A stretch of DNA of 64,000 bases from NCBI RefSeq assembly GCF_002283365.1, contig NZ_MQWD01000001.1, forward strand, positions 3,607,951 to 3,671,950, in the 5' to 3' direction. This stretch comes from Rubrivirga marina (lineage in GTDB: Bacteria > Bacteroidota > Rhodothermia > Rhodothermales > Rubricoccaceae). The position numbers and the translations under genes are program-made. Below the pieces are notes generated by a model. The model ran no database searches and was not told where the DNA came from. It saw nothing but the letters and a program-made list of their open reading frames with translations. Of this stretch, positions 6,212 through 61,293 are shown in pieces; positions within the stretch are counted from its first letter, which is position 1; the number at the start of each line of letters is the position of its first letter.

Positions 6212-7606
6212 CTAGCGGGGGCGGCCGTTGCGCGCGAGCGCGGCGATGAGGTCGCTCCGCGTGAGGATGTCGAACCCGCCCGCCTCGGCGCGGACGAGGA
6301 CGGCCCCGGCCTCGCCGTCGAGCGTGGCCGTGAGGTCGTCGAGGTGGACCGAGGCGGGGACGACCGGCAGCGGCGCGCCCATCACGGCGCGGACGGGCTC
6401 GTCGCGCGCCTCGGGCTCGGCGATCAGCCGGTGGAGCACGCCGCGTTCGTTGAGGCTCCCCACGACCTCGTCGCCGTCGAGAACCGGGACCTGGCTGATT
6501 CCGTGCTGGGTCATGGCCTCGATGGCCGAGGCGAGCGTGTCGTCAGGCGCGACGCCGATCACGGCCTCGGCCCGTGGGCGGACCGCAAGCACGTCTTCGA
6601 GCGTGAGCGTATCGGGCTCTTCGAGGAACCCGTTCCGGCGCATCCACTCGTCGTCGTAGGTCTTCGAGAGGTAGCGGAAGCCGCTGTCGGGCAACAGGAT
6701 GACCACGACGTCCTCCTCCGTCAGCTCACCCTCGTGCGCTCGCAGCCAGTCGAGCGCGCCGGCGACGGCCATCCCGCAGCTCTGTCCCACGAACAGGCCC
6801 TCCTCGCGCGCGAGCCGCCGCGTCATCCGCATCGACGTCTTGTCGTCGACCTGGACGTAGTCGTCGACGAGCGAGAAGTCCATGTTGCCCGCCAGGATGT
6901 CCTCGCCAACGCCCTCGGTGAGGTACGGGTAGATCTCAGACTCCTTGAACTCGCCCGTTCGCCAGTACTCGGCGTACACGCTCCCGTAGGGGTCGACGCC
7001 GATCGCCTTGACGCTCGGCTTCTGCTCCTTGAGGTACTTCGTGGTGCCGGAGATCGTGCCGCCCGTTCCGGCCCCGGCGATGAAGTGGGTGATCCGGCCG
7101 TCGGTCTGGTCCCAGAGCTCCGGGCCCGTCGTCCGGTAGTGGGCCTCGGTGTTGGCGGGGTGGTCGTACTGGTTCGGGTAGAACGAGTTGGGGATCTCGG
7201 TCGAAAGCCGTTTGGCGACGGAGTAGTAGCTCCTGGGGTCGTCCGGCGCCACGTTCGTCGGGCAGACGATGACCTCAGCGCCGAGGGCGCGGAGGACGTC
7301 GACCTTCTCGGGGCTCTGCTTGTCGGTCGTCGTGAAGATGCACTGGTAGCCCTTGGCGATGGCGGCGATGGCGAGGCCGGCCCCCGTGTTGCCCGACGTC
7401 CCCTCGATGATGGTCCCGCCCGGCTTGAGCTCGCCCTTGGCCTCGGCGTCCTCGATCATCGCCATGCCGATCCGGTCCTTGACCGACCCGCCGGGGTTGA
7501 AGAACTCGACCTTCGCGAGGACGGTGCACGGGAGGTCCCGCCCCAGCGTCTGGAGACGGACGAGCGGCGTGTTGCCGATGGTGTCGAGGATTGAGTCGGA
7601 CCACAT
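6212..7606 (-). CDS. Cystathionine beta-synthase with C-terminal CBS pair
   Basis: A 464-residue PLP enzyme joining homocysteine and serine to cystathionine in the transsulfuration route. The PLP lysine is in GGSVKDRIG (Lys43), the Asn-containing loop is SGNTGAGLA, and the phosphate-binding loop is GAGTGGT (178-184). Residues from about 335 on form two CBS motifs (TLASAIEAMTQHGISQVPV...; EPVRAVMG...), as in eukaryotic-type CBS, where they regulate activity. ATG at 7606 is chosen because MWSDSILDTIGNTPLVRL is the family's usual start; the frame stays open upstream but without similarity. O-acetylserine-dependent activity cannot be excluded. It is divergent from yqgE across a 50-bp perfect palindrome. 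Confidence 0.9.
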   Translation of the reverse strand: MWSDSILDTIGNTPLVRLQTLGRDLPCTVLAKVEFFNPGGSVKDRIGMAMIEDAEAKGELKPGGTIIEGTSGNTGAGLAIAAIAKGYQCIFTTTDKQSPEKVDVLRALGAEVIVCPTNVAPDDPRSYYSVAKRLSTEIPNSFYPNQYDHPANTEAHYRTTGPELWDQTDGRITHFIAGAGTGGTISGTTKYLKEQKPSVKAIGVDPYGSVYAEYWRTGEFKESEIYPYLTEGVGEDILAGNMDFSLVDDYVQVDDKTSMRMTRRLAREEGLFVGQSCGMAVAGALDWLRAHEGELTEEDVVVILLPDSGFRYLSKTYDDEWMRRNGFLEEPDTLTLEDVLAVRPRAEAVIGVAPDDTLASAIEAMTQHGISQVPVLDGDEVVGSLNERGVLHRLIAEPEARDEPVRAVMGAPLPVVPASVHLDDLTATLDGEAGAVLVRAEAGGFDILTRSDLIAALARNGRPR

Positions 7607-7716
7607 GGAGGGCGCGGAGACGGTCGGGCCGAAAGCTACTCGGCCGGGCGTGCGGTCCCCGTGAGGATCGATGCGTCGCGCATGCTGCCGGCCCTCCGCC
7701 GGCCCTCCGCCTGCCA

Positions 7717-7766
7717 CGCGCCCGGCTGGTCCCGCCTCGGCGCCGAGGCGGGACCAGCCGGGCGCG
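7717..7766. repeat. 50-bp perfect palindrome between divergent CBS and yqgE genes
   Basis: Bases 7717-7741 are the exact reverse complement of 7742-7766 (25 + 25, no loop). The centre is the family core GCCTCGGCGCCGAGGC and the outer arms read CGCGCCCGGCTGGTCCC and its complement. It lies between two divergently transcribed starts (7606 and 7873), so it cannot be a terminator for either. It could be an operator, a cruciform-forming site or a mobile palindromic repeat. Confidence 0.9.
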
Positions 7767-7872: not shown

Positions 7873-8421
7873 ATGCCTGCCCCCGTCCCGGGCGACGTCC
7901 TCGTCGCCGAGCCTCCAATGGCGGACCCCAACTTCCGCCGGACCGTCGTGCTCCTCTGCGAGCACACCACCGACGGCTCGTTCGGCCTCGTGCTCAATCG
8001 GCCGACGGGGCTCGCGCTATCGCAGGCCACCGACGAGGCGTTCTCGTTCGACGCCGAGCTCTGGATGGGGGGGCCCGTCCAATCCGACACGCTCCACTAC
8101 CTCCACCCCTACGGAGACCTCGACGGCACGCTCCCCGTGCTCGACGACGTGTTCTGGGGCGGCGACTTCGACTCGCTCCGGAGCGCCATCGCCGCCGGCT
8201 GGGTCGACCCCGAGCGCGTCCGGTTCTTCGTCGGCTACTCGGGCTGGGGCTCGGGCCAGCTCGACGCCGAGGTCGACGAGAACGCATGGATCGTGCTCCC
8301 CGGTTCGGCCGACCTCGTCTTCGCCGACGGCGACGACGCGCTCTGGAGACAGGTCCTCCGCCAGCTCGGCGGCGAGTACGCCCTCCTCTCGACGTTCCCC
8401 GACGACCCGCGCCTGAACTGA
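7873..8421 (+). CDS. YqgE/AlgH-family protein (UPF0301)
   Basis: A 182-residue cytoplasmic protein of the YqgE/AlgH family, whose structure is known but whose function is not settled. Family signatures are GDVLVAEPPMADPNFRRTVVLL at the start (here beginning at residue 7), GLVLNRPTG, WMGGPV and VGYSGWGSGQL. The start at 7873 (MPAPVPGD) fits family length; an in-frame start at 7822 would add 17 residues that read across the palindrome-flanking spacer. The next gene starts 2 bases after its stop, suggesting one transcript. Confidence 0.9.
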   Translation: MPAPVPGDVLVAEPPMADPNFRRTVVLLCEHTTDGSFGLVLNRPTGLALSQATDEAFSFDAELWMGGPVQSDTLHYLHPYGDLDGTLPVLDDVFWGGDFDSLRSAIAAGWVDPERVRFFVGYSGWGSGQLDAEVDENAWIVLPGSADLVFADGDDALWRQVLRQLGGEYALLSTFPDDPRLN

Positions 8422-24657: not shown

Positions 24658-24677
24658 CCGCCTCGGCGCCGAGGCGG
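24658..24677. terminator. 20-bp perfect palindrome between convergent genes
   Basis: CCGCCTCGGCGCCGAGGCGG is a perfect palindrome with additional outer pairing (CCCCG at 24647-24651 with CGGGG at 24679-24683). It lies between the stops of the propeller gene (24646) and the AbgT transporter (24687), a bidirectional terminator position. It is identical to the copy inside the penicillin acylase gene. Confidence 0.65.
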
Positions 24678-26273: not shown

Positions 26274-26366
26274 CGGGCCGAGGCGAGAAGTCCTGGGGGA
26301 ACCCCCGAGGATACCAACGCGCGCCGGGCCGCCCCACTCGGCGGCGACCCCGCGCCGACTCGCCCT

Positions 26367-26382
26367 GCCTCGGCGCCGAGGC
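26367..26382. repeat. Palindrome GCCTCGGCGCCGAGGC
   Basis: A perfect 16-bp palindrome of the dispersed family, with CCTGCC/GGCAGG flanks. It lies between the kinase stop (26421) and the AbgT start (26273), both on the minus strand, in the position of a terminator for the kinase gene. Confidence 0.6.
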
Positions 26383-26420
26383 GGGGCAGGCGGCCTGAGT
26401 GCCGTGCCCCTGCGAAGGCC

Positions 26421-33230: not shown

Positions 33231-33248
33231 GCGCGCCTGAGGCCCTCC

Positions 33249-33264
33249 GCCTCGACGCCGAGGC
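33249..33264. repeat. Palindrome GCCTCGACGCCGAGGC (unit 1)
   Basis: A family palindrome with one mismatch, 13 bases from the position that corresponds to the fadA stop codon in the adjacent fadA remnant. The same spacing (11-13 bases) is found at the second remnant and at the real fadA 3' end. Confidence 0.6.
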
Positions 33265-33281
33265 GAGGGAAGCCGGGCGAG

Positions 33282-45525: not shown

Positions 45526-47853
45526 ATGAAGCGCCTCCTCGCCATCCTGCTCGCCGCCGTCGTGCTGCTCGCCCTCCTCGGCGCCGTCGGCGTGTGGGGC
45601 GCGCTGCGCGGCAGCCTGCCCCACCTCGACGGCGAGCACGCCCTCGCCGGCCTGTCGGCGCCCGTGACCGTCGAGCGCGACGCGGCCGGCGTGCCGACGA
45701 TCACGGCCGCGACCCGGCCCGACGCGGCCCGCGCGCTGGGCTACGTCCACGCGCAAGAGCGGTACTTCCAGATGGACCTCCTCCGGCGGGCGCCCGCCGG
45801 CGAGCTCTCGGCGCTCCTCGGCGAGGCCACGTGGCGGACCGACTCGACGCTCGCCGGCCACCGCTTCCGCGAGCGGGCCCTCGCAAGCGTCGCCGCGCTG
45901 CCCCCCGACCAGCGGGCCGTCCTCGACGCCTACGTCGACGGCGTCAACGCCGGGCGGGAGGCCCTCGACGCGCGGCCGTTCGAATACCTCGCCCTCCGCC
46001 AGGAGCCGGCACCGTGGCGGCCGGAGGACTCGATCCTCGCTGCCTACGCCATGGTCCTCGACCTTCAGTTCGACGGCGGGTTCGGGGTCGAGCTCGAGCG
46101 GGAGGCCGTCGCCGCCGCGCTCCCCGAGGCCCTCGCCGACTTCCTCACGCCCCGCGGCGACGACTGGGACGCGCCCATCCAGGGCGACGCGATCGCCCCG
46201 CCTCCAATCCCCGCCCCGGACCAGCTCGAGGGCTTCCGCCTCGGCGCCGAGGCGGGCGCGGTCGCCGACCCGCCGACGCCGGGCTCGAACAACTGGGCCG
46301 TCGCGGGGGACCTCAGCGAGACCGGTAGCGCCATCGTCGCCGACGACATGCACCTCGGGCTCCGGCTCCCCCACATCTGGTTCCGTGCGTCGCTGGTCTA
46401 CGGCGGGCGCCGCGTGACGGGCGTGACCCTGCCCGGCGCACCGCTCGTGGTGGTCGGGAGCAACGGCGACGTGGCCTGGGGCTTCACCAACTCGTACGGC
46501 GACTTTATCGACTACGTCCGCCTCGTGGACGCCCCAGACCGGCCCGGCCACGTGCTCACCGACTCCGGGAGCGTCGCCGTCGACACGCTACGGATCGACG
46601 TGGCTGTGGGCGGGGACGTCCGCCAACTGGTCGTGGTCGACACGCCCTGGGGCCCGGTCACGGCGCGCGACGCCGACGGGACGGCCTACGCCGTGCAGTG
46701 GTCGGTCCACCGGCCCGAGGCCACGAACCTCGCGCTCCTCGACGTCGAGACGGCGACGACGCTCGACGACGCGCTCGACGCGGCCAACCGCTCGGGCATC
46801 CCGGCGCAGAACTTCACCGCCGGCGACCGGGCCGGGCGGATCGGGTGGACGATTGCGGGGCAGATCCCGCTCCGCGCCGGCCGCGACGGCCGGCGGCCGG
46901 TCGACTCGACCGACCCAAACGCACGGTGGGCCGGCTTCCTCCCGCCGAGCGACGTGCCCCGCGTCACCGACCCGGAAGACGGCCGGCTGTGGACGGCCAA
47001 CGCCCGCGTCGTCTCGGGCGAGGCCCTCGCGGTCATCGGCGACGACAACTACGCCCACGGCGCCCGCGCCCGCCAGATCCGCGACGGCCTCCGCGCCCTC
47101 ACGCCGCCGATCTCGGAACAGGACCTCCTCGGCATCCAGCTCGACGACCGCGCCGTGCTGATGGGCCGCTGGCGCGACCTCTTCCTCCAGACGCTCGCCG
47201 AGGCCGAGCCGACGACGGACCGCGACTCGCTCCGCGTCCTCCTCGACGCCTGGAGCGGGCGCGCCGCGCCCGGCGACGTCGGGTACCGGCTGACGAAGGA
47301 GTTCCGCGAGGCCGTGGTCGAGCGCGTGCTCCCCCCGCTGATGGCGCCCGTCCGCGCCCGCGCTCCGCGCGCCGACCTCCCGGCGCGCGACGAGACGCCG
47401 GTGTGGGCCCTCGTCACGGAGCGCCCGACCCACCTCCTCCCCTCCGGCCACGCGAGCTGGCAGGCCCTCCTCGAAGACGCGGCCGACGACGTGGCCGACC
47501 AGCACGACGTGCTCTCACAGGCGTCGTGGGGCGCGGCGAACACGCTCCGGATGGAGCACCCGATGGCCTCCGCCCTCCCCGGCCTCGGCGACCGGCTCGT
47601 TATGCCGGCCGTCCCCCAGTTCGGCGACCAGCGCATGCCGCGCGTCTCGGGCCCCGACTTCGGCGCGTCGCAGCGGATGGTCGTGTCGCCGGGCCACGAG
47701 GACCGCGGGATCTTCCAGATGCCCGGCGGCCAGGCCGGCCACTTCCTGTCCCCCTACTGGGGCGCCGGCCACGACGACTGGGTCGAGGGCCGCCCGAGCC
47801 CCTTCCTGCCGGGCCCGACGGAGTGGACGCTCACGCTCACGCCCGCGGGCTGA
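45526..47853 (+). CDS. Penicillin acylase-family N-terminal nucleophile hydrolase
   Basis: A 775-residue exported Ntn-hydrolase. The N-terminal hydrophobic segment (about 3-25) is a signal or anchor. The alpha part has LGYVHAQERYFQMDLLRR and FEYLALRQEPAPWRPEDS; the autocatalytic cleavage site precedes Ser254 in PGSNNWAVAG, the new N-terminus of the beta chain; further motifs are MHLGLRLPHIWF and GNVAWG-like NGDVAWGFTNSY. Members hydrolyse amides such as beta-lactam side chains or acyl-homoserine lactones; the natural substrate is unknown. A 20-bp perfect palindrome (46236-46255), identical to an intergenic one, codes for residues 237-244 in the spacer just before the cleavage site. Confidence 0.9.
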   Translation: MKRLLAILLAAVVLLALLGAVGVWGALRGSLPHLDGEHALAGLSAPVTVERDAAGVPTITAATRPDAARALGYVHAQERYFQMDLLRRAPAGELSALLGEATWRTDSTLAGHRFRERALASVAALPPDQRAVLDAYVDGVNAGREALDARPFEYLALRQEPAPWRPEDSILAAYAMVLDLQFDGGFGVELEREAVAAALPEALADFLTPRGDDWDAPIQGDAIAPPPIPAPDQLEGFRLGAEAGAVADPPTPGSNNWAVAGDLSETGSAIVADDMHLGLRLPHIWFRASLVYGGRRVTGVTLPGAPLVVVGSNGDVAWGFTNSYGDFIDYVRLVDAPDRPGHVLTDSGSVAVDTLRIDVAVGGDVRQLVVVDTPWGPVTARDADGTAYAVQWSVHRPEATNLALLDVETATTLDDALDAANRSGIPAQNFTAGDRAGRIGWTIAGQIPLRAGRDGRRPVDSTDPNARWAGFLPPSDVPRVTDPEDGRLWTANARVVSGEALAVIGDDNYAHGARARQIRDGLRALTPPISEQDLLGIQLDDRAVLMGRWRDLFLQTLAEAEPTTDRDSLRVLLDAWSGRAAPGDVGYRLTKEFREAVVERVLPPLMAPVRARAPRADLPARDETPVWALVTERPTHLLPSGHASWQALLEDAADDVADQHDVLSQASWGAANTLRMEHPMASALPGLGDRLVMPAVPQFGDQRMPRVSGPDFGASQRMVVSPGHEDRGIFQMPGGQAGHFLSPYWGAGHDDWVEGRPSPFLPGPTEWTLTLTPAG
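46236..46255. repeat. Dispersed palindrome inside the penicillin acylase gene
   Basis: CCGCCTCGGCGCCGAGGCGG, identical base for base to 24658-24677. It is in frame and encodes part of a flexible linker, so it is tolerated within a coding sequence. Confidence 0.85.
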
Positions 47854-59493: not shown

Positions 59494-60153
59494 GTGACGG
59501 ACGCCCCCCGACTCCCGATGCTCCTCCTGCTCGTGGCCCTCGTCGGCCTCGCCACGCCCGCGGACGCCTCGACCGTCCGCGACTCGCTGACCCACTACTA
59601 CGTCCGCCAGGACATCGAGGCCGTCGACCGGCTCTACCGCACGAAGGCGCGGACGCGCGAGGACCGGCTCCTCTGCCTCTACCGCCTCTACCCGATGACG
59701 CTCGACGAGCGCTACCTCGCCGACATCCCGTCCGAGGACGGCGTGACGTCGGCCCGGGAGCTCGCGCTGATCTCGGCGCTGTGGGCCTACCGCGCGTCCA
59801 GCGGTCCGGCGTGGCGGCTCCCGACGTACGGCCGCCGCTCCGAGCGGATTCTGGACCGCGCGCTCGCCCGGGACCCGACGGAGCCGTACGCGCTGCTCGT
59901 CCGCGGCCAGGGCCTCTACTACAAGCCCGGCATCTTCGGCGGCGACGTGGCGGCGGCGCAGCGGACGTTCGAACGGCTCCGCCAACGGGTGAGTGGGCGC
60001 GGCGTGCCCGGCCTCCACCCGTTCGAGGCCGAGGTCTGGATCTGGATGGCCCTCCGTCGACAGGACGAGGCGGCCGGGGCGCGGCTTCGGCAGCGGCTGC
60101 TCGCACAGAACCCGCCGAGCATGTTCCGCCAGTTCCTGGTCGACCCTCCGTGA
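59494..60153 (+). CDS. Exported helical-repeat protein within the carotenoid cluster, unknown function
   Basis: A 219-residue protein. The GTG at 59494 (or ATG at 59518) precedes a signal-like segment LLLLVALVGLATPADAS. The mature part is helical, with TPR-like spacing (YRTKARTREDRLLCLYRLYP ... RSERILDRALARDPTEPYALLVRGQGLYYKPGIFGGD). The last pattern resembles proteins of the carotenoid-cluster hypotheticals, but I do not recognise a named family. Its stop overlaps the start of the following glycosyltransferase, so the product may act in the same pathway or complex. Confidence 0.65.
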   Translation: MTDAPRLPMLLLLVALVGLATPADASTVRDSLTHYYVRQDIEAVDRLYRTKARTREDRLLCLYRLYPMTLDERYLADIPSEDGVTSARELALISALWAYRASSGPAWRLPTYGRRSERILDRALARDPTEPYALLVRGQGLYYKPGIFGGDVAAAQRTFERLRQRVSGRGVPGLHPFEAEVWIWMALRRQDEAAGARLRQRLLAQNPPSMFRQFLVDPP

Positions 60154-61275: not shown

Positions 61276-61293
61276 CGCCTCGGCGCCGAGGCG
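61276..61293. terminator. 18-bp palindrome after the carotenoid cluster
   Basis: CGCCTCGGCGCCGAGGCG is a perfect palindrome, 7 bases after the glycosyltransferase stop and 51 bases before the convergent recQ stop. Confidence 0.65.

Follow-up and report, generated by a model that had tools for sequence, protein, structure and literature searches.

To our knowledge, uptake sequences are known only from Neisseriaceae and Pasteurellaceae. Those of Pasteurellaceae (USS) are non-palindromic 9-10-mers that are in excess in genes and have paired copies at gene ends. In the account of Neisseriaceae consulted here, DNA uptake sequences (DUS) are the most abundant short word, occur on both strands in genes and spacers, and form species dialects; inverted pairs are frequent at gene ends, overlapping dyads occur in S. 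muelleri, and the highest density (Frye 2013) is about 5,900 per 2.4 Mb (PMC3630211). DUS are described as scarce in acquired islands (PMC7371117), and as lying in permissive parts of the neisserial core genome, with many appearing by recombination (PMC2397512). Another kind of dispersed word, HIP1 and the alternate HIPs of cyanobacteria, is reported as palindromic octamers that are tied to methyltransferases, extremely over-represented and switching between lineages (PMC4390886). No report of uptake sequences for Rubrivirga, Rubricoccus, Rhodothermus or Bacteroidetes was found in the open-access literature. Here, we describe a 50-bp perfect palindrome of Rubrivirga marina that we read, with moderate confidence, as an inverted pair of a dispersed word (CCGAGGCGG) behaving like a DNA uptake sequence, with arms that were later perfected.

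Methods

The R. marina genome (G000, 4.98 Mb), which holds the 64-kb stretch of DNA that was analysed (the window), was compared with Rubrivirga members G001, G002 and G003 and with other genomes of the family Rubricoccaceae, among them G007 and G008 of one other genus. The main R. marina sample was unselected and comprised the window and 20 stretches (464 kb). Samples of 400-464 kb each were used for G000, G001, G003 and G007, and smaller ones for G008 (142 kb), G004 (60 kb) and G005 with G006 (44 kb). Twenty further R. marina stretches, picked because they hold listed copies, served only for arm statistics, one per-stretch count and the pool of orthologous genes. Stretches of G001 and G007 were spread across large contigs; some of those of G001 were placed near listed dyads, so spacer counts for this genome may be high. 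Genes in the 464-kb sample were called with our own codon-usage gene-finding script (coding density 0.90), and over-representation was measured against 15 codon-preserving shufflings of synonymous codons within genes.

Results

The palindrome is exact, as originally predicted: window positions 7717-7766 are their own reverse complement over 25+25 bp with no loop and no mismatch, bounded by unpaired bases at 7716 and 7767 (Table 1). No other perfect inverted repeat of the window is as long: the runners-up have 15-bp arms and loops of 5 and 2 nt, and about 4e-9 perfect 25-bp arms are expected in 64 kb at the window's composition. Folded as single-strand DNA it reaches -37.1 kcal/mol (z -9.3). 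It lies between the starts of the divergent genes cbs and yqgE, 110 and 106 nt from their start codons, and the original prediction was right that from this position, upstream of both, it cannot terminate either gene; its remark on the instability of perfect palindromes was, from general knowledge, overstated at 50 bp, strong instability being a property of much longer ones. A terminator and a sigma-70-type promoter were looked for at the palindrome and neither was found, and an Rfam search gave 0 matches over the gathering score and 2 sub-threshold ones. A phage origin was rejected, as no match was found. The octamer TAGCTTTC on the cbs side would be a possible -7 element of the cbs promoter, if compared with what we take to be the Bacteroidota-type consensus. 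Between this possible promoter and the palindrome (window 7684-7712), an 11-bp unit (GGCCCTCCGCC) is duplicated in tandem; the duplication is missing in G002 and G001, which are both shorter at that place.

Table 1. Features of the window around the palindrome, and other copies of the core dyad.
Feature	Position	Strand	Basis or remark
50-bp perfect palindrome (25+25, loop 0)	7717..7766		reverse-complement identity, inverted-repeat scan, fold
dispersed family core dyad, CCGCCTCGG-CG-CCGAGGCGG	7732..7751		genome count; kept upstream of cbs in G002 and G001
forward half of the dyad, word CCGAGGCGG	7743..7751	+	top over-represented coding 9-mer in G000 and G001
reverse half of the dyad, word CCGAGGCGG	7732..7740	-	word enrichment in coding DNA
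cbs-side outer arm, positions 11-25 from centre	7717..7731		alignment; outermost CGGGCGCG (cbs strand) common to G002
yqgE-side outer arm, positions 11-25	7752..7766		exact complement of cbs-side arm; unlike the G002 and G001 arm
TAGCTTTC, possible -7 element of cbs promoter	7632..7639	-	conservation in G002 and G001; inferred function
cbs, cystathionine beta-synthase / cysteine synthase type	6212..7606	-	PALP + CBS domain
yqgE / AlgH-like	7873..8421	+	DUF179
other core dyad	24659..24676		between convergent genes, stop codons 21 and 19 nt away
other core dyad, 1 mismatch	26366..26383		46 nt past a stop
other core dyad, 1 mismatch	33248..33265		83 nt past a stop
other core dyad	46237..46254		within a called gene
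other core dyad	61276..61293		16 nt past a stop

The centre of the palindrome belongs to a dispersed family, a further point on which the original prediction was borne out. Its central 18-mer (CGCCTCGGCGCCGAGGCG) occurs at 387 places in the R. marina genome at no more than one mismatch and its reversed, uncomplemented form at none; the same dyad is counted 167 times in G001, 194 times in G002, twice in G003 and 0-5 times in five other genomes of the family. Forty dyads lie in the 464-kb sample, of which spacers make up about 10%: 18 in tandem spacers, 7 in convergent and 3 in divergent ones, and 12 inside called genes, although our script will have set some starts wrongly and some of these last truly lie in spacers. 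In 22/40 cases the dyad centre is no more than 60 nt past a stop codon, against 2.7% of positions in the background, and all 7 convergent-spacer dyads lie between two gene ends. Since dyads mostly follow gene ends, the dyad between cbs and yqgE occupies a minority position. Unrelated to the dyad, the same sample (window and L160-L179) holds another repeat, TCATCCTGAG / GCTCAGGATG, in 16-18 copies where 0.6-0.8 are expected.

The dyad consists of two copies of the 9-mer CCGAGGCGG, which also stands alone on both strands. The original prediction had missed that the family pairs, in inverted orientation, a word which is also scattered singly through genes. In coding DNA, both strands counted, this word ranks first of 21,667 9-mers in R. 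marina (285 copies vs 101 expected, an excess of just 2.8-fold) and first of 19,229 in G001 (244 vs 79). The R. marina coding copies comprise 140 single, 90 weakly partnered and 55 paired ones. No consistent strand bias by locus was seen in R. marina, and the two strands carry similar numbers of words in every sampled stretch of G007. At dyad flank positions 11-25 the arms show no covariation beyond column shuffling (81, later 137 copies); outside the core the halves therefore evolve independently, as a DNA word and unlike an RNA stem. The unit is thus a DNA word and not a hairpin. A second word, CCGCCAGCC, is enriched 3.4-fold in R. marina coding DNA (77 vs 22 expected); it is close to the dialect of G003 and G008 described below, and possibly an ancestral or visiting dialect.

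Relatives carry different words in the same architecture, namely CCGAGGCGG in G000 and G001, CGCTGGCGG in G003 and G008, and CGCCAGAGGC in G007. The top coding 9-mer of G003 is CCGCCAGCG, i.e. CGCTGGCGG (318 vs 85 expected, rank 1 of 18,428), while CCGAGGCGG is not enriched in this genome of similar GC; CGCTGGCGG also forms its commonest post-stop stem, with GCTGGCGG after 20/356 stops. Coding DNA of the G007 sample contains CCTCTGGCG 1,076 times where 58 copies are expected, and 51 kb of spacers contain a further 532. The 10-mer CGCCAGAGGC occurs genome-wide in 14,176 exact copies (7,127 forward and 7,049 reverse; about 3.2 per kb), its reversed form in 61 (37+24), and the other 113 of the order's 114 genomes hold at most 63+36 copies (G008). 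Within the G007 sample its 1,480 copies compare with 128 for its best one-mismatch neighbour, which contains the G003-type word CGCCAGCGG, and the flanks of the word hold nearly no information. The halves of the G007 dyad, GCCTCTGGCG/CGCCAGAGGC, overlap by CG like the Rubrivirga halves CCGCCTCGGCG/CGCCGAGGCGG, and 71/162 exact dyads lie within 60 nt past a stop (background 3.2%). In the 142 kb of G008, the word of the G003 type (89 vs 25.7) is joined by some of the G007 type (29 vs 4.5). No clear word was found in the small samples of G004 (60 kb) and of G005 with G006 (44 kb). G005 and G006 (L064, L316-L318 and others) do carry 11 copies of intergenic CACGTAATC/ACGTAATCA in the 44 kb, and 8 of AACAGCCTC, which may belong to a small repeated element.

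How words came to lie in genes was approached by aligning orthologues. Between G007 and G000, 52 reciprocal-best gene pairs contain 207 G007 words, of which 132 lie in gap-free stretches; conservation at these is 0.57, compared with 0.66 in their flanks and 0.73 at random places. An alignment gap lies within 15 nt of 75/207 words, against 13% of random positions, and 12/207 words lie wholly within insertions of 9-90 nt, against 1.8% at random. As words are near gaps more often than random positions are, some did not arise by in-place substitution. Gap-free words in the other comparisons number 18 of 26 for G000 vs G003 and 22 of 28 for the reverse, 5 of 7 for G000 vs G001 and 3 of 4 for the reverse, 2 of 2 for G000 vs G002, and, for G007, 11 of 12 vs G008, 23 of 41 vs G003 and 15 of 30 vs G001. 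In two comparisons conservation is slightly higher at the word than in the flanks (G001 vs G000, 0.74 and 0.70; G000 vs G002, 0.94 and 0.92). Most words thus arose where they now stand, within permissive stretches of genes and in some cases together with indels, which resembles the permissive placement described for neisserial DUS (PMC2397512).

Words are sparser on the one separate contig compared in each of two genomes. In a full density comparison of one non-chromosomal contig (C10) in each of two genomes, density is 3.5-fold lower in G000 (0.25 vs 0.87 per kb) and 5-fold lower in G007 (0.82 vs 4.04 per kb), where it drops along C10 from 1.9 to 0. One word is present in a 9-kb piece of another G007 contig, C11. 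TrbB-type conjugation ATPases score over the cut-off on contig C5 of G000 (L293) and on C14 and C15 of G007 (L290, L294), which suggests conjugative plasmids or islands in the family.

ComEC (PF03772) and DprA (PF02481) were found in 9/9 genomes of the family, and the ComEC of R. marina exceeds the NCBIfam cut-off (282 vs 190); both say little, because control genomes also carry them widely (ComEC 10/14, DprA 11/14). A PilT/PilU-family ATPase scores over the cut-off of 319.1 in G000 (323.0) and just short of it in G007 (316.9), and chromosomal PilB/GspE-like ATPases score 377 and 370 in these two genomes, below the PilB cut-off of 676. PilM gives weak matches in 7/9 genomes, and PF00437 (PilB/PilT) matches in 4/5 genomes tested, with no match in the 91%-complete assembly of G008. 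The idea that PilB/PilT presence tracks the presence of words was dropped, as G008 has no PF00437 match and yet is enriched in words.

The region upstream of cbs can be aligned in G000, G001 and G002, where it lies at a contig start. The core of the dyad is intact at the orthologous site of G002 and is CACCTCGGCGCCGAGACG in G001, with 2 changes in the 18-mer; TAGCTTTC is kept in G002 and is TAGCTTCC in G001. A different gene (judged by eye) lies upstream of the site in G001, whose yqgE is elsewhere, and since the core is nevertheless kept, the dyad goes with cbs and is older than these species. The outer arms differ from this. At the orthologous site of G002 the perfect arms are 10 bp long; at the end of its cbs-side arm stands CGGGCGCG, as far out as in G000, and its other arm differs. 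Inner arm positions 11-17 have a clean match in neither relative, with a similar GGACC in the other arm of G001. As originally predicted, the arms reach far beyond the core: in a set of 137 copies that is biased in that it includes listed exact copies (L009-L038), perfect arms are at most 14 bp in 135, 20 bp in one (genome position 59692) and 25 bp at the palindrome. All 15 of its outer positions pair, for which the product of column match rates is about 2.9e-7 per copy and 1.1e-4 over 387 copies; 0.04 copies with at least 13 outer matches are expected among 137.

The original prediction that the palindrome may be recent or selected therefore divides, the outer arms (G000-specific) looking recent and the core dyad, which predates these three species, being old. 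Perfection of the outer arms (positions 11-25) would postdate the divergence of G000 from G002. Its likeliest cause is a template switch at a dyad already in place, whereby replication or repair copied one arm from the other, the outer part probably from the cbs side, and not selection on a hairpin. We read the copy with 20-bp arms in the same way, such copying being occasional. Such a change would resemble the quasipalindrome template-switch mutation, in which an imperfect inverted repeat is made more perfect by copying one arm, as described in PMC7202029, with the difference that here it is reconstructed from one locus in three genome sequences, with no mutation event seen. Contig C241 of G002 starts 13 bases past the orthologous dyad, and the yqgE of G002 opens a different contig (L057); short-read assemblies may break at dyads.

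Discussion

The words of Rubricoccaceae match uptake sequences in their abundance as non-palindromic words, absence of strand bias, post-stop inverted pairs and lineage dialects, and may do so in their scarcity on a non-chromosomal contig. Like the DUS of Neisseriaceae, as far as these are described in PMC3630211, they are abundant on both strands, have dialects, and form inverted pairs at gene ends and overlapping dyads; unlike them, they belong to another phylum, are unrelated GC-rich words, form dyads with no T tract and, in G007, reach a higher density (14,176 per 4.4 Mb). With the USS of Pasteurellaceae they share a length of 9-10 bases, an excess in genes and pairs at gene ends, and differ in sequence and phylum. 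By analogy, a DNA-uptake receptor would recognise the word. A non-palindromic 9-10-mer would be held at high copy on both strands, in genes and spacers, probably because word-bearing DNA is preferentially taken up or recombined by its own species, a molecular drive via natural transformation. In permissive spacers, two copies would then settle head to head, overlapping by CG.

The chief rival of the uptake-sequence reading is that the words owe their origin or upkeep to a DNA methyltransferase specific to the lineage, or to repair that depends on methylation, a mechanism proposed for the cyanobacterial HIP1, with lineages swapping word and enzyme; we regard this as unlikely. Very high density, exactness and lineage swaps would fit the HIPs of PMC4390886, and each word comes close to a palindrome but for an asymmetric centre, as in CCG-AGG-CGG and GCC-AGA-GGC. 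However, HIPs are true palindromes, whereas here one asymmetric centre alone is enriched (GCCAGAGGC, with 1,500 copies, where the 62 centres observed have a median of 18), and the portion of that source drawn on here describes no post-stop inverted pairs (PMC4390886); over-represented words that switch by lineage are common to both systems, and the Rubricoccaceae unit is set apart by being asymmetric and paired after stops. The position of 22/40 dyads soon after stops, the 7/7 convergent ones between gene ends and the strong hairpin at the palindrome could instead speak for dyads that are primarily bidirectional terminators or mRNA 3'-end hairpins, with single words as by-products. This is distinctly improbable, as a TTTT run occurs in 0/80 dyad flanks in G000 and 3/324 in G007, the arms do not covary outside the core, and hundreds of single words inside genes, together with a focal copy upstream of both its genes, would go unexplained. 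For the focal copy itself an intrinsic terminator was rejected on this position, the negative terminator search and the missing T tract. An operator for a dimeric regulator of cbs and/or yqgE would suit a site between divergent promoters, whose core is present upstream of cbs in three species despite a different upstream gene in G001, but the same core occurs at hundreds of places, mostly gene ends, and the outer arms are not conserved, so that we give this very little credence. We saw no sign that the site acts specifically on the cbs and yqgE promoters, and most likely the palindrome has no special regulatory role there.

We attach slightly less weight still to the perfect outer arms being an assembly or read artefact: the end of a G002 contig 13 bases past its dyad indicates that the site may be hard to assemble, but in G000 it sits between unique flanks inside a contig of 4.7 Mb, G002 shares the outer cbs-side arm, and the copy at 59692 has 20-bp arms. 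Least probable, to an equal degree, are two other origins. Intergenic palindromes in hundreds of copies with a species-specific expansion recall REP-like or MITE-like mobile elements spread by a RAYT-type transposase; against this, IS200-like Y1 transposase domains number 2 in G000 and 0 in G001 despite its 167 dyads, and the 132/207 genic single words that align gap-free look like substitutions, not insertions. The REP/RAYT explanation was rejected, the cognate Y1 transposase being absent from dyad-bearing G001. Chi-like or FtsK-orienting (KOPS-like) sites are brought to mind by the G003 sequence GCTGGCGG, presumably one base off the E. coli Chi octamer, but such sites are strand-polar, and here dyads are common, the words have no consistent direction in G000 and the strands are similar in every sampled stretch of G007; this explanation was rejected, as strand polarity was not found in the samples of either genome.

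Taking up the uptake-sequence reading again, we tentatively propose, with confidence a little short of even, that Rubricoccaceae (Rhodothermota) have independently evolved self-recognising uptake sequences in three or more dialects, the densest of which exceeds the maximum of Frye 2013, and that the palindrome is a dyad caught mid-homogenisation. The palindrome would then be a natural case of a quasi-palindrome turned perfect. The word would serve as a practical marker for acquired DNA, and would likely be a key to transforming these marine bacteria. If the proposal is true, the family is a second, unrelated lineage in which closely related species use different dialects, and it would open the questions of how DNA self-recognition arises and shifts, which receptor reads the word, and whether word and receptor co-evolve.
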